A stretch of DNA of 64,000 nucleotides from Saturnia japonica (Eukaryota; Arthropoda; Insecta; Lepidoptera; Saturniidae), in assembly GCA_033032175.1 (NCBI GenBank), contig CM065331.1, forward strand, positions 9,424,370 to 9,488,369, given 5' to 3'. Of the stretch, positions 7,387 through 50,620 are shown one piece after another; the first letter of the stretch is position 1, and every line of letters starts with the position of its first letter. The notes under the pieces were generated by a model that did not search any database, was not told the origin of the DNA, and saw only the letters and a list, made by a program, of their open reading frames with translations. The translations under genes were made by a program, and so were the position numbers.

Positions 7387-7620
7387 CCGACCCCTTTGAG
7401 CTCGATTTTGTCCTACTTTGAATGATCAGATTTAATTCAAACTTTGCACACCTGTCAAAAGTCGATGACAATGCAATAATCCGATCAAAGCATCCGATTA
7501 TCCTAATTAGATTCGCCAGGATTAATTAATTTCTTTCCGCATTCTTTACATGCGAGTAAGAGAGATAGAGCTAGTGCGCGAACTACGCATGGGTGCAGTT
7601 CCACACTTACTCTTTCGTGC

Positions 7621-7824
7621 ATGCAAGGTTGTACAATTGATCATGCAGTCATTTATTTGGGTCCGCGATTGTTTGCTGCTGGACAAGCTTACGTGGCACT
7701 TAGTCGTGGAAGATCCTTGGACGGTATACGAATTGAAGAACTTGATTGCTCAAAATTAACAGGAAGAACTCCATGTAACAGTGAAGCATTGGATGAAATT
7801 ATTCGATTACGAGATAAACCATAA
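7621..7824 (+). pseudogene. Helitron Rep/helicase, Pif1-like C-terminal fragment
   Basis: The 67 residues read MQGCTIDHAVIYLG, then AAGQAYVALSRGRSLDG, then CSKLTGRTPCNSEALDE and a stop. QGCTID..V corresponds to SF1B (Pif1/RecD-like) helicase motif V, and GQAYVALSR to motif VI with its arginine finger. This is the canonical end of the Helitron RepHel helicase domain. The Met is an internal residue, because in the family it follows a conserved HK. Upstream sequence no longer encodes the HUH nuclease or helicase motifs I-IV, so only the last few percent of a protein normally well over 1000 residues remains. It could have supplied transposition function to the many HeliA-D relics, but this copy is dead. 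Confidence 0.75.
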
Positions 7825-8140: not shown

Positions 8141-8524
8141 AATAAAAAATAGTTTAAAAAAACTAAAAAAAGCACGCTTTCATAAAAAATCCAACTAAAA
8201 AACAGAAAATAAAAATTAATAAATTTGCTTAAGTACAGTGTAAAAAAAAATGAATGTACATTATTGTAAAAAAAGCGTGGGGTGCATAGTGTCAATAATT
8301 ATAAACATTTTATTGACAGATAATGAGTAGAAGAATCATCACTTCGATAATATAATATCTTAAAAAGCGCTTTGAATACACCCCACGCTTTTTTTACAAT
8401 AATGCACATTCATTTTTTTTTTACACTGTACTTAATCAAATTTATTAAATTTTATTTTCTGTTTTTTAGTTGGATTTTTTATGAAAGCGTGTTTTTTTTT
8501 GTTTTTTTTAAACTATTTTTTATT
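8141..8524. repeat. Large inverted repeat (foldback), ~147-bp arms
   Basis: The left arm 8141-8287 and right arm 8377-8524 are near-perfect reverse complements. Shared blocks include 'agcacgctttcat' against 'atgaaagcgtg', 'taagtacagtgtaaaaaa', 'cattattgtaaaaaaagcg' and 'gcgtggggtg'. The spacer of about 89 bp itself holds a 9-bp hairpin, TGTCAATAA/TTATTGACA. This could be a MITE/foldback element or a fold-forming terminus. No ORF inside. Confidence 0.8.
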
Positions 8525-11434: not shown

Positions 11435-11831
11435 ATTATATATTACGTGAGAAGAAAACTTCGGACCCTTTTTAAGTGTATTGCGTGCACGGAGGACTGT
11501 GAGATTTGGCATGGTTAAAGTTTATATGGAGAAGTGCAGAAAGCTAAAATTTATGTATAATACCTGGTACTAATATATAAAATTAAATAAATGAATATTG
11601 CGAATCCTAACACGACAAGTACCATTGAAGTTAGACCCCCCCTCCTCCCCCCCCCCCCCCATATTGACATTGTCATTCAATAAAAAGTGACAGCAAGTAA
11701 TAATTATATTACTTTTTGACTTTTCATGAATATTATATCATTGTTTAGATTCACACTACAAATGTTAAACAGAAAAATAGTCTATGATTGAAAAGTCGCT
11801 GGTCGAATTTTGTTCATTGGGCGACCGCTAA
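11435..11831 (+). mobile_element. HeliD Helitron-like copy with poly-C tract
   Basis: It is collinear with 50075-50420 and with the interrupted copy at 23974-25640: 'gcgtgcacggaggactgtg', 'aaagtttatatggagaag', 'gacattgtcattcaat', 'agtctatgattgaaaag' and 'cgctggtcgaatttt'. Its 3' end 'gaccgctaa' before T is a degraded CTAG. A C-rich tract with a 14-base C run occupies about 11635-11660. Confidence 0.6.
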
Positions 11832-12049
11832 TAATTTTATAAATAATTTGTACAAAAAAGATCGTGTCTCGCCTAATTATCGTGCGGGGGTACGTCGCGG
11901 AAATCGCAAAAATGTTCATTAACACAGTCCAGAGTACAGTTAGGCAAAAAAACGAATTACTTCTATGCACATCGTGGTACAGTCAACTACATAATTATGC
12001 ATAAAACGGAAAAGTTATTAAAAATTAGGTTATATTATCAGAGCATAAT

Positions 12050-16249: not shown

Positions 16250-16735
16250 GAGGTTCCCCTGAGTCTTGCAGCGGCCCGCGTGATACAGGTAACACTGCAC
16301 TTGCAATCACTTATCTACCCACATACATCATTACACACAACATGTTCATATATACGTGCACACGACACAGGTACATAGGTTTTGTAAGGAACGGTTTTTT
16401 TTGTTTTTTTACGCTAGTTAGTGTAGACCATATTTCAGATCACTAAATACATATACAGATGTTCCTTCCTTCCTCCCAGGAGGCAGGGACATATATATGT
16501 ATATTTTAGTTTAGCTCCAATTTTACGGACAGATCGCGACTTCTTTGCAATCGCGGCAACAGCCCAAGCTGAGGTCCGGCCACTTTGGCACTTTTGTGCG
16601 CTTGTTGCTCACGATTTCGCGGCCAAGTGTCTTAAGCGCTCACCCCCAAACCCAGTAAAACTGTAAAAGCCATCAGCGGCTCTGTTTTTGGTTAGAGCAC
16701 CTCAGGCTAACAGTACGGTCACATCGAAAAAAAAA
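16250..16735 (+). repeat. Rep-R copy, long
   Basis: The best Rep-R copy (see 5180-5575). It ends in an A-rich tract just before a LINE tail, an order repeated at 32485-32850. Rep-R may therefore be linked to the same retrotransposon lineage. Confidence 0.6.
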
Positions 16736-16778
16736 AAACAAAAAGAAACGCGACCTCAACTCAGGGATTACATCCGGA

Positions 16779-17190
16779 GTGTCATCTCCACGACATTTCG
16801 GAGACATAGAATCCTGGACAGGGTGCAACGCTTCTTCACGCCCGGTTAACTATATCTTCTTTAACAAATACAAGTTCGGCCATGTAAGGAATAGTGTTTG
16901 TACCCCTGCATCATCATGCAGACGTAACCAAATACATCGAACTGCTTCAGCAGCGCAGACACTGTGCCTGTTTTATCATAAGTATCATGGTGAGTGTTCT
17001 GAAGTACTGTACATTCTAGTTCCTTCCTCTCACTTCCACAACAAAACCACACACTCTGGGCTTCGCAGTACAGTTTTACAATTACCACCATCTCGGCACG
17101 AACTAAAAAGTTCTTTATGACTTATCTTTATCATACCGTGAAACTGTGGGACCGTCTTCCGGCTAAGGAGCCGTTCAAGTATAACGTAAC
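16779..17190 (+). pseudogene. CR1/Jockey-like RT C-terminal fragment, frameshifted
   Basis: Translated pieces give LFYHKYHGECSEVL, then a TTHSG block, then, in another frame, YHTVKLWDRLPA followed by KEPFKYNV. The family order 'FYR.F.G.CS.EL...RT.KLWN.LP...FP..YN...FK' marks the region after the RT thumb in CR1/Jockey-class LINEs. At least one frameshift and stop separate the pieces, and there is no catalytic YADD motif. It is a 5'-truncated dead copy. Confidence 0.6.
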
Positions 17191-17264
17191 GCAGTTTAGG
17201 GGGAGGGGGTATTTTAAAACGTTACGATGCGTTACAAGGTCGGGAGGGTGGTTCGAACTAGGGT

Positions 17265-17360
17265 TGTTGCGGATATCTGCATCCGCATCCGCAAATGCAG
17301 AACATTCGCATTAATTTAGAGATCTGCGCCCGCATTCGCATCCGCATCAATCGATGCGGA
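17265..17360. repeat. Imperfect GCATCC/ATGCGG hexamer repeat
   Basis: 'gcatccgcatccgc', 'cccgcattcgcatccgcat' and 'gatgcgg' form a GC-rich minisatellite-like patch in both orientations, with hairpin potential. Confidence 0.5.
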
Positions 17361-22439: not shown

Positions 22440-22860
22440 ATGGTAAGTAAAGATGAGGCAGACGATGTATCGCACTTACCTATTAAATGCCTATTCTCTT
22501 GAAGACTCCCAAGTTATAGGTGGATGGGAAAACAGACGATTCCTCTCCCTTCTCCACTCCTTTGCCGTTCGCATAATGAACGACGTAGCATAACGCTTCG
22601 TGCGAATGAGGGGAATTTCCACGACGTAAGGGTGGAATCCCTCACGGCGTCTAGTTGTCCTATGGTGAAACGGTTTGGGAGGAATTAAATCGTACAATTC
22701 CTGTGCACATACTCCAAAGTGCAACTTGTAAAACACTGAGAGGCAAGGTGCCTTACGTCGATGCTCTAGACAGCATTTTGTCCGTCATCAGTGCTTGATC
22801 GCCAACAAGGTGACGAGCTCGGCGCTCAATGGAGTCAAGAGCGGCCAACTAATATTTGTA
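22440..22860 (-). pseudogene. CR1/Jockey-like RT C-terminal fragment
   Basis: The minus-strand translation gives LAALDSIERRARHLVGD, a stop, then LSVFYKLHFGVCAQELYDLI, PPKPFHHRTTRR, IRTKRYATSF and MRTAKEW. This is the classic thumb/post-RT order 'LDSIQRRA..L.GD ... LSVFYR.HFG.CS.EL..LIP ... RT.RF..SF..RTA..WN.LP'. One in-frame stop and a frameshift near the end disable it. No upstream RT motifs remain, so it is a 5'-truncated copy. Confidence 0.75.
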
Positions 22861-23945: not shown

Positions 23946-24048
23946 TAATGAGACATATTGAAATTTTTTAATACTAGCGATCGCTCTAATGTCGAAATTC
24001 GACCAGCGACTTTTTGATCATAGACTATTTTCTGTTTGACATTTATAG

Positions 24049-25355
24049 TACAAGGTGTCCAGAAAGGGTATCGGGTATTTGTTTTCGCGCCATATTCGAA
24101 ACGGGGCGTCTAAAGGGTGCGGGGAGGGGTTCGTGGCGTCCGCCATTTTGTGGAGTTTTAGTCACGATGGAACAGTACTCGGGGACGCATCGCGCATTTT
24201 GCGTACGAGCGTATTATCGTAATGGTGATTCAATAGTGACTGCTCAACGTCTCTATCGTGTGGAATATCGTACACGCCACGCGCCAAGTGACGATAGCAT
24301 TAGGAAATGGATCAGGATGTTCGAGAATACAAGTGCGACAGTTAAAATTCAAAACTCTGGTCGTCCTCGTTCAGTTCGCGATGAAGAAACAATTGAAGAA
24401 GTTGAGACGTCGGTTCGTCAAAATCCGTCTTTATCCATCCGAAAGCGAAGCCAAGCGTTGAACATCAAAAAATCGTCTTTACATTCGATTTTAAAGAAAG
24501 ACTTACATCTAAAAGCCTATAAAATTCAATTGGTTCAAGAATTGAAGGATACGGACTATGCTAATCGACTGAATTTTGCGAACGAAATGCTGCAGCGATT
24601 TAACAACTTTAACAACATACTGTTCAGTGACGAAGCAAATTTTCACCTGAATGGTCATGTTAATAAGCAGAATTGTCGGTACTGGGCAGTGGAGAATCCG
24701 AGACGAAAGCATGAACGACCCCTGCATAGCCCAAAGGTCGTTGTTTGGGCCGCTATATCTGCTAAAGGCATAATTGGTCCTTATTTTCATGAAGATCAAC
24801 GAGGCCGAGCAATTAATGTGAATAGTGACCGTTATTGCGATATGTTGCGAAATTTTTTGGTCCCAGAGTTGCAGGAGTTTGCAGGTTTCAACTCAAGAAC
24901 GTGGTTCCAGCAAGATGGGGCCACTTGCCATACCTCAAATGACTCAATGGAAGTTGTTAACGAATTATTCCCTAATAAAGTCATTTCGCGAAGGGGTAAC
25001 ATCAACTGGCCTCCCAGAAGCCCCGACCTTAGCCCGCTTGACTATTTTGCATGGGGATACCTTAAAAGTAAGGTTTATCAAAACAATCCGACGAATCTAA
25101 CCCAGTTAAAGCATAACATCAGGTCAGAAATGGCAGCAACATCGATAGCTATGTGTCAACGTGTTATCGCCAATCTTCGTTTCCGTTTAGAAGAGTGCCA
25201 GCAACGTAACGGTCATCATTTGGATAACATCATCTTTTCCAAATAATACTCCAATTCATATGCTAATAATAAACAATAAACTTTTTTATTGCATACAAAT
25301 AATTTTTGTTTCATTGAACTTACAAATACCCGATACCCTTTCTGGACACCTTGTA
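24049..25355 (+). mobile_element. Complete Tc1/mariner (DD41D) transposon
   Basis: Perfect 32-bp terminal inverted repeats lie at 24051-24082 and 25322-25353, beginning CAAGGTGTCCAGAAAGGGTA. They are flanked by TA duplications at 24049-24050 and 25354-25355. One uninterrupted transposase gene lies between them. Perfect ends and an open frame point to recent insertion. The element lies inside HeliD, and the uninterrupted copy at 50.3 kb reads straight across the site with a single TA. Confidence 0.95.
24167..25246 (+). CDS. Tc1/mariner-superfamily transposase (DD41D type)
   Basis: A 359-residue cut-and-paste transposase that would bind the element's inverted repeats and excise and reinsert it at TA. 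The frame is open further upstream (from 24014), but that reaches across the left TIR, so I take the ATG at 24167, 116 bp inside the element. Residues 10-55 form a first helix-turn-helix (related to the DUF4817 type of insect transposases). A GRPRS hinge at 65-69 is followed by a second HTH at about 75-115. The DDE_3-like catalytic core has D155 (ILFSDEANFH), D250 (WFQQDGATCH) and D292 (RSPDLSPLDYFAWG), with 41 residues between the last two. That spacing matches the DD41D (rosa-like) group rather than mariner DD34D or Tc1 DD34E. All three acidic residues are present and no stop or frameshift is seen. Likely introduced by horizontal transfer, as is usual in this superfamily (inference). Confidence 0.95.
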   Translation: MEQYSGTHRAFCVRAYYRNGDSIVTAQRLYRVEYRTRHAPSDDSIRKWIRMFENTSATVKIQNSGRPRSVRDEETIEEVETSVRQNPSLSIRKRSQALNIKKSSLHSILKKDLHLKAYKIQLVQELKDTDYANRLNFANEMLQRFNNFNNILFSDEANFHLNGHVNKQNCRYWAVENPRRKHERPLHSPKVVVWAAISAKGIIGPYFHEDQRGRAINVNSDRYCDMLRNFLVPELQEFAGFNSRTWFQQDGATCHTSNDSMEVVNELFPNKVISRRGNINWPPRSPDLSPLDYFAWGYLKSKVYQNNPTNLTQLKHNIRSEMAATSIAMCQRVIANLRFRLEECQQRNGHHLDNIIFSK

Positions 25356-25922
25356 TTAATAAACAATGAGTATTATCTACATCACTTGCTGTCACTTTTC
25401 GTTGAGTGACAATGTCAATATTTTGAGGGGTCTAAGTTCAATAGCACTGGTCGGGTTAGGATTCGCAGTATAATTAATTTATGAAATTAGTAACAGATAT
25501 TATAGATAAATTTTAGTTTTCTGCACTCCTTCTCCATATAAACTTTAACGATGCCAAATCACTGTCTTCCGTGCACGCAATACGCTTAAAAAGGGGTAGA
25601 GAGCTTTTGCTTCACATATTAATATGTATATAGATAAATAATATTTTTTATTTATATTAGAACATCTTTTGGGTCTCGATATAGTTCGCTTTTAGGACTC
25701 TAACCCAAACTCAAAGATTGGTACATCAAACGTGACCATTTTTTTTCTCATCAAAGCGAGACGCTTAATGAAATTTGTAACTAATTTTATTAGAATACTT
25801 AAAAAAAAAAACAATGACATGGTAACACTATACAATAAAATAAAAATAAGTAATTTAGTAGAATTGATGTAATGTCTTTCAACTTGTCTTATATTTGTCT
25901 ACGAAACAAATCTATTTTAAAA

Positions 25923-49985: not shown

Positions 49986-50074
49986 TTATTTGTTTCTTTA
50001 CTATTATTCATCTTATTTTATACACAGTTATGCCAAATCACATGGATAGAGTAGAATATGAATATATATATATT

Positions 50075-50420
50075 AATACGTGAAGCAAAAGCTTTCTACC
50101 CATTTTTAAGCGTATTGCGTGCACGGAAGACTGTGTGATTTGGCATCGTTAAAGTTTATATGGAGAAGGAGTGCAGAAAGCTAAAATTTATCTATAATAT
50201 CTGTTACTGATAATATATGAAATTAAATAAATGATCGAATCCTAACTCGACCAATACCATTGAATTTAGACCCCCGAAAATATTGACATTGTCAATCAAT
50301 GAAAAGTGACAGCAAGTGATATAATATTCATTGTTTAGGTTCATACTGCAAATGCCAAACAGAAAATAGTCTATGATTAAAAAGTCGCTGATCGAATTTC
50401 GATCTTTGGGCTACAGCTAG
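50075..50420 (+). mobile_element. HeliD copy, uninterrupted
   Basis: It ends 'gggctacag' CTAG (50417-50420) before T. It includes 'gtgcacggaagactgtgtg', 'gagaaggagtgcagaaagc' and 'atattgacattgtcaatcaa'. The palindromic 'ttgacattgtcaa' is internal. It serves as the empty paralogous site for the mariner at 24 kb. Confidence 0.7.
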
Positions 50421-50424
50421 TATA

Positions 50425-50620
50425 AATAAATATGGTACACAATTTAACGGTCATTTAATTCCAAACTAAGCAAAGCTTGTATTGTGATAACTAGACAGCT
50501 GATATACATACATACAACTGACAATAATTATGCTCATCACACAAAAGTCAGTCACACAATAGCAGTGCTTATTATCACTGCGCCACGAAGCGTTTCTAAT
50601 CTTCACAGTTCAAACAAAGC
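50425..50620 (-). mobile_element. SINE-3 copy
   Basis: It matches 58340-58590: 'aactaagcaaa.cttgtat', 'tatgctcatcacacaaa.gtcagtca'. The tRNA-like head here is damaged ('cactgcgccacgaagcg'). The tail is 'ataaataaatatgg'. Confidence 0.55.

Follow-up and report, generated by a model that had tools for sequence, protein, structure and literature searches.

Positions 24051 to 25353 of the 64,000-nucleotide stretch of Saturnia japonica DNA analysed here (GCA_033032175.1, contig CM065331.1, positions 9,424,370 to 9,488,369; hereafter the window) almost certainly hold a cut-and-paste DNA transposon, a rosa-like DD41D member of Tc1/mariner with short terminal inverted repeats (TIRs), which lies in an older repeat with a Helitron-like end and belongs to a family of about 2,700 copies, the product of a single burst now mostly ended. 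The element fits the rosa-type DD41D group, a kind already known, and the novelty lies in its family within this genome.

The element and its transposase

The element is 1,303 bp long and has the hallmarks of Tc1/mariner, namely a single transposase open reading frame (ORF), short TIRs on either side and a TA duplication. The TA duplications lie outside it, so the span 24049-25355, given as its extent in an earlier reading of the letters alone (the sequence-only reading), counts both TAs. The TIR arms are identical over 32 bp, or 34 bp with the TAs included, and the first 25 nucleotides of the TIR, searched with at most 3 mismatches, match only the two ends of the element in the window, against a mean of 0 in 100 shuffles. 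The ORF starts 116 bp into the element, is free of stops over 359 codons and is the sole ATG ORF of at least 150 amino acids in the window (Table 1). The identical arms, the open transposase and the catalytic residues D155, D250 and D292, with 94 and 41 residues between them, all stand as the sequence-only reading had placed them, and its assignment to DD41D, based on the 41 residues from D250 to D292, agrees with alignments to relatives, Mos1 and Sleeping Beauty.

Of 6,345 candidates in a protein search, 5,717 reached E ≤0.001; the listing covers the best 120, and 81 of those were aligned with the window protein to give 82 rows. D155 and D292 are present in every row and D250 in 81, the single gap being in P0003, a gene model without that part; the spacing from the second to the third aspartate is 41 in 80 of the 81 rows, the window's among them, that have the complete triad, and 28 in one. 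The predicted model contains the RNase H-like DDE/D core of the Mos1/Sleeping Beauty fold, and sequence and predicted fold agree with Mos1, SETMAR and Sleeping Beauty. The N-terminal Pfam match to DUF4817 has an E-value of 3.4e-15, and this domain is matched in all 82 aligned rows, but 81 of these were picked as matches to the window protein. DD41D transposases appear to have DUF4817 as their first DNA-binding domain; in the portions of the literature consulted, a Hydra genome paper was the only one found to pair it with a transposase.

Table 1. Features of the element and of the repeat that it interrupts (window coordinates)
Feature	Position	Strand	Remarks
Left TA target-site duplication	24049..24050	.	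Only one TA at this point in the empty paralogue
Left 32-bp TIR	24051..24082	+	Identical with right arm
Transposase ORF	24167..25246	+	359 aa plus stop; DUF4817 helix-turn-helix at residues 6-55; RNase H-like catalytic core D155, D250, D292
AATAAA, possible polyadenylation signal within the element	25268..25273	+	Putative function
Second AATAAA within the element, 3' of the ORF	25275..25280	+	Putative function
Right 32-bp TIR	25322..25353	-	Identical with left arm
Right TA target-site duplication	25354..25355	.	
Older repeat split by the element	23963..25632	-	Helitron-like 3' end, CTAG then T on the minus strand at 23977-23974; joined flanks match 50063-50431
Uninterrupted paralogue, empty site with one TA	50063..50431	+	86% match to joined flanks
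Second uninterrupted paralogue	11466..11833	+	73%; TG at the insertion point when oriented like the window's plus-strand flanks

Copy number and age of the burst

In the 580,019,968-bp assembly (402 contigs, 31 of them chromosome-scale, since C31 measures 9.2 Mb and the next, C32, 0.3 Mb; the window lies in C28), the 28-nucleotide end was found with at most 3 mismatches 2,726 times in forward and 2,729 times in reverse orientation, 5,455 in all, against 0 for a control pattern. This corresponds to about 2,700 copies and roughly 0.6% of the genome, a conversion from ends that ignores arrays and single ends. All 40 DNA matches scored, among 160 candidates, are full length and 99-100% identical, and 105 of the 113 protein matches scored, among 11,770 candidates, have no internal stop (the window's own included). 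Miniature inverted-repeat transposable elements are absent from 29 pairs of ends on contig C1 (1,078-1,356 bp), short copies genome-wide not having been searched.

Two features of the assembly were seen alongside these counts. C1:4909700-4919400 holds a tandem-like array; its units, spaced at about 1.7 and 2.4 kb, contain copies of the element with internal deletions, and the listed ends recur about 14.7 kb further on. Of 20 contigs of 14.9-17.0 kb, ten differ from the window in G+C (48-61% against 34%), show long open frames over their initial 5 kb and are perhaps microbial contamination.

The age of the burst was estimated from 69 copies: that of the window, the 39 next best by DNA score (L010-L048) and the 29 from C1, which are pairs with both 28-nucleotide ends perfect, drawn from the first 100 places listed for that contig, internal sequence being no criterion. 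Against the majority sequence of the 69, the window copy carries 7 changes (0.54%), six being replacements; the C1 copies average 11.1 substitutions (0.85%) from their own majority, with a median pairwise difference of 1.6%. The C1 variants comprise 253 singletons, 31 seen twice and 2 seen three times, so that the copies are nearly, not perfectly, star-like, which suggests one recent burst. Private changes (235 replacement, 76 silent and 18 stop) are close to the neutral expectation, indicating decay after insertion without visible selection. Full-length open ORFs are found in 28 of 40 copies in the best-scoring set, which is biased, and in 6 of the 29 in the C1 sample, where three further copies have the ORF in frame but shortened. 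The mutation rate in Heliconius is 2.9e-9 per site and generation, at which the burst would be about 3 million generations old and the 7 changes of the window copy would represent about 2 million.

These low divergences and the nearly star-like pattern support youth of the family, in line with the youth suggested for the element in the sequence-only reading, but not the argument from its perfect ends: identical 32-bp arms have a probability of 0.65 at 0.7% divergence and still of 0.05 at 4.7%, and the 7 substitutions from the majority are therefore the better evidence. The window's variants themselves were at one stage read from the protein relatives as private decay, which was dropped once some were found in L010-L048, 38 of which carry exactly one of the 7 and one (L017) two. 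They were also considered as marks of a subfamily, a reading rejected since these copies had been picked for their resemblance to that of the window, which produces the sharing; in the C1 sample, 27 of 29 carry none and 2 carry one (M197I).

Several observations weigh against a simple burst of this kind. The C1 divergences have a variance/mean ratio of 1.7 and recurrent variants number 33 against about 20 expected by chance, which together indicate that the burst was not instantaneous or did not start from strictly one founder. There is no identical pair among the 2,346 that the 69 copies form, the nearest pair having 4 differences, and the nearest neighbour of the window copy has 9 differences (among 69 of about 2,700 copies, including the 39 best-scoring among those scored).

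The last two observations also bear on whether the window copy is a currently mobile, autonomous element, which we consider unlikely. Its ORF and TIRs are intact, it lies just 7 substitutions from the majority, and stop-free matches predominate among those scored. Against this, of the 40 DNA matches scored, the best after the copy itself reaches 2317 bits, compared with 2358 for the self match, and its six transposase replacements include T325, which is found in 0 of 81 aligned relatives, 77 of them having I; S56 of the window copy is found in 3 of 81, 76 having G. The expanding mariner of the fire ant, Mariner-2_DF, had sets of identical copies (857 copies, diversity 0.005, 30 identical copies), its burst being attributed to horizontal transfer in the portion of that report available (PMC6307670); the S. 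japonica family resembles it in being a recent mariner-type burst and differs in copy number, in pairwise divergence and in lacking any identical pair among the copies compared. Recent activity of the family is therefore likely judging from the sequences, and present activity of the window copy unlikely, so that the suggestion of an element that is perhaps active is supported for the recent past of the family and unsupported for the present of this copy.

It is very improbable that the family is instead old and vertically inherited, and looks young through homogenised copies or assembly collapse. The tandem-like array on C1, which holds copies of the element, speaks for this explanation, but the copies are spread over many chromosomes at distinct sites, and their differences are mostly private and near the neutral expectation, which conversion would not yield; the homogenised-family explanation is thus disfavoured compared with a recent burst.

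Relationship to other Tc1/mariner elements

Within Tc1/mariner, the sizes of the element agree with the rosa type, taken as about 1.3 kb, TIRs of about 27-32 bp and an ORF of about 360 aa. The rosa-type DD41D elements Crmar2 of Ceratitis rosa and Apismar4 of the pea aphid are given as 1,299-1,355 bp long, with TIRs of 27-32 bp and ORFs of 361-362 aa (PMC5490172, in the part available), against 1,303 bp, 32 bp and 359 aa here, and share the DD41D spacing. They differ in copy number, with 44 rosa copies described in the aphid (PMC5490172) against about 2,700 end pairs here, and in their ends, the TIR being clearly similar only to Apismar4.1 among the three Apismar4 TIRs (2 of 2,000 shuffles as good, against 808 and 477 for Apismar4.2 and 4.3).

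The DD41D spacing is also shared with the DD41D/VS elements of bees, described as having 1-401 copies and 1-3 intact ones per genome (PMC8472432, in part), as opposed to the many stop-free matches found here, and with the Lsra/LTIR DD40-41D elements, for which TIRs of about 460 bp and lengths of >2.3 kb are given (PMC5490172), against 32 bp and 1.3 kb. Membership of the latter group is thus contradicted by the TIRs, as is membership of the DD34D mariners by the spacing, which is 41 and not 34 residues between the second and third D. Mos1 (DD34D) and Sleeping Beauty (DD34E), both with solved structures, have the same fold and catalytic positions as the window transposase, but a spacing of 34 and 22-24% identity in structural alignments.

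Three points count against the rosa-like DD41D assignment. The Pfam model DDE_3 scores 24.4, below its cut-off of 28.6. The quick tree of 49 rows, in which the root is weak (79) and the outgroup branches are long, does not include the reference rosa sequences Crmar2 and Apismar4. The TIR is better matched by the irritans (DD34D) mariner TIR of an aphid, with the common string GTGTCCAGAAA and 0 of 2,000 shuffles as good, so the ends give no argument for rosa.

That the element is an ordinary DD34D mariner or maT element whose third catalytic residue is D287 and was misassigned to D292 is scarcely credible: D287 is likewise conserved (81 of 82 rows, one gap) and the TIR resembles that of irritans, but it is D292 that aligns with the catalytic position of Mos1 and Sleeping Beauty, opens the predicted helix 290-302 as expected and is kept in all 82 rows, and the Pfam mariner model (Transposase_1) has no match in the window transposase up to E 1.

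The insertion site

With one TA removed, the joined flanks of the element align over 374 columns with the minus strand of 50063-50431 (86%; one TA at the junction) and over 372 columns with 11466-11833 (73%; TG at the junction); both unoccupied sites are paralogous, not allelic. The TA duplication and the order of insertion claimed in the sequence-only reading are upheld by the first of these, for which that reading had given 50075-50420. The TA flanks of the fetched copies mostly follow from the finding method, in which the pattern or query held the TA, and are not independent evidence of the duplication. The surroundings of the TA show a preference: in 63 of 69 sites A or T occupies all of positions -3, -2, +3 and +4, where flanking composition predicts about 16, and 47 of 69, including the window site, fit the fuller pattern WWR-TA-YWW.

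The identity of the interrupted repeat as a Helitron is tentative. Its 3' end reads CTAG-T, CTAG-T and CTAA-T in the three copies, that is, CTRR then T in each, in keeping with the Helitron host claimed from the sequence, and a small hairpin with a stem of 5-6 bp is predicted just upstream in two of them. At the 5' end, homology continues beyond the candidate TC, and the copies disagree on where that end lies, with no common 5' TC. The Hel-2 Helitrons of Lepidoptera are described as having a 5' TC, a 3' CTAG and a 3' hairpin (PMC4344730, in the part available), which makes a Helitron identity, resting here on the 3' end, plausible but tentative. No use of the name HeliD, given to the repeat earlier, was found in the literature consulted in connection with Helitrons.

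Two N-terminal helix-turn-helix domains, of which DUF4817 is the first, would attach the transposase to the 32-bp ends, and the DDD catalytic core of the protein would cut the element out, with reinsertion at a TA within an A+T-rich core doubling that TA. The window copy would in this way have landed in the older repeat, during a single burst of nearly identical founders that has since mostly stopped. Anatomy, fold, the TA doubled relative to a paralogous empty site, the number of ends, the low star-like divergence and the neutral-looking decay are observed; from them we infer which biochemical steps took place, in what order, and that the burst has mostly ended.

Other possible repeat remnants were noted elsewhere in the window. 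An ORF piece at 7507-7824 (+) resembles by eye the end of a Helitron helicase, and pieces at 16659-17314 (+) and 22491-22784 (-) resemble the reverse-transcriptase tails of long interspersed nuclear elements, with no Pfam match up to E 0.1 in any of the three. Positions 8144-8250 and 8414-8520 form a 107-nucleotide inverted repeat, 92% complementary and 163 nucleotides apart.

Possible horizontal transfer

Among the best 120 matches listed, the named close relatives are mostly from Lepidoptera, an order reported as a hotspot of horizontal transfer (PMC6373975, in part); together with the 31 chromosome-scale contigs, this suggests a Lepidoptera-like setting for the element. In the quick tree the window protein joins P0002, P0003 (Eumeta japonica) and P0005 (support 89), and Loxostege (97). 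Other parts of the tree depart from host relationships, pairing a ladybird beetle with Colias croceus (100; P0051, P0056) and Plutella with Maniola (99; P0025, P0040). The only row annotated as 'putative DD41D', a spider protein (P0091), lies with the DD41D proteins, but on a long branch and by way of the weakly supported root.

The Eumeta protein model is 96% identical to the window protein, P0003 differing from it at 14 of 322 aligned residues and from the majority of the 69 copies at 8 of 322, and this near-identity suggests horizontal spread as a lead. R60 and A77, common to both Eumeta models, occur in none of the 69 copies, essentially all of which have K60, E77 and F339; F339 is present in 69 of 69, the residue being S in P0002, P0003, P0005 and P0010. 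These differences look like the mark of separate bursts, each in a different genome, from very similar founders.

No relatives of the transposase were found by tblastn in viral contigs, nor any in prokaryote genome contigs, and, by structure, viral proteins yielded no more than weak matches, all to other transposases and integrases. The exact 21-nucleotide TIR sequence has 0 matches in viral contigs; a single match in genome contigs was observed in a metagenome-assembled genome of Bryobacteraceae.

Implications

DD41D elements are mostly known as low-copy or decayed examples in the accounts available. About 2,700 young copies, many of them with open frames, provide a dated burst, target-site data and material for tests of DD41D transposases. 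Given the tie between DUF4817 and DD41D transposases, transposons may hide behind gene models called 'DUF4817 domain-containing' or 'SETMAR-like'. Horizontal transfer among Lepidoptera becomes testable through the near-identity with the Eumeta protein. It is quite possible, though we lean slightly against it, that a DD41D lineage moved recently between moth lineages, nearly the same founder seeding separate bursts in S. japonica and Eumeta japonica, with that of S. japonica the largest DD41D burst known to us and hundreds of open transposases left. If so, a native, recently active DD41D system would be open to study.
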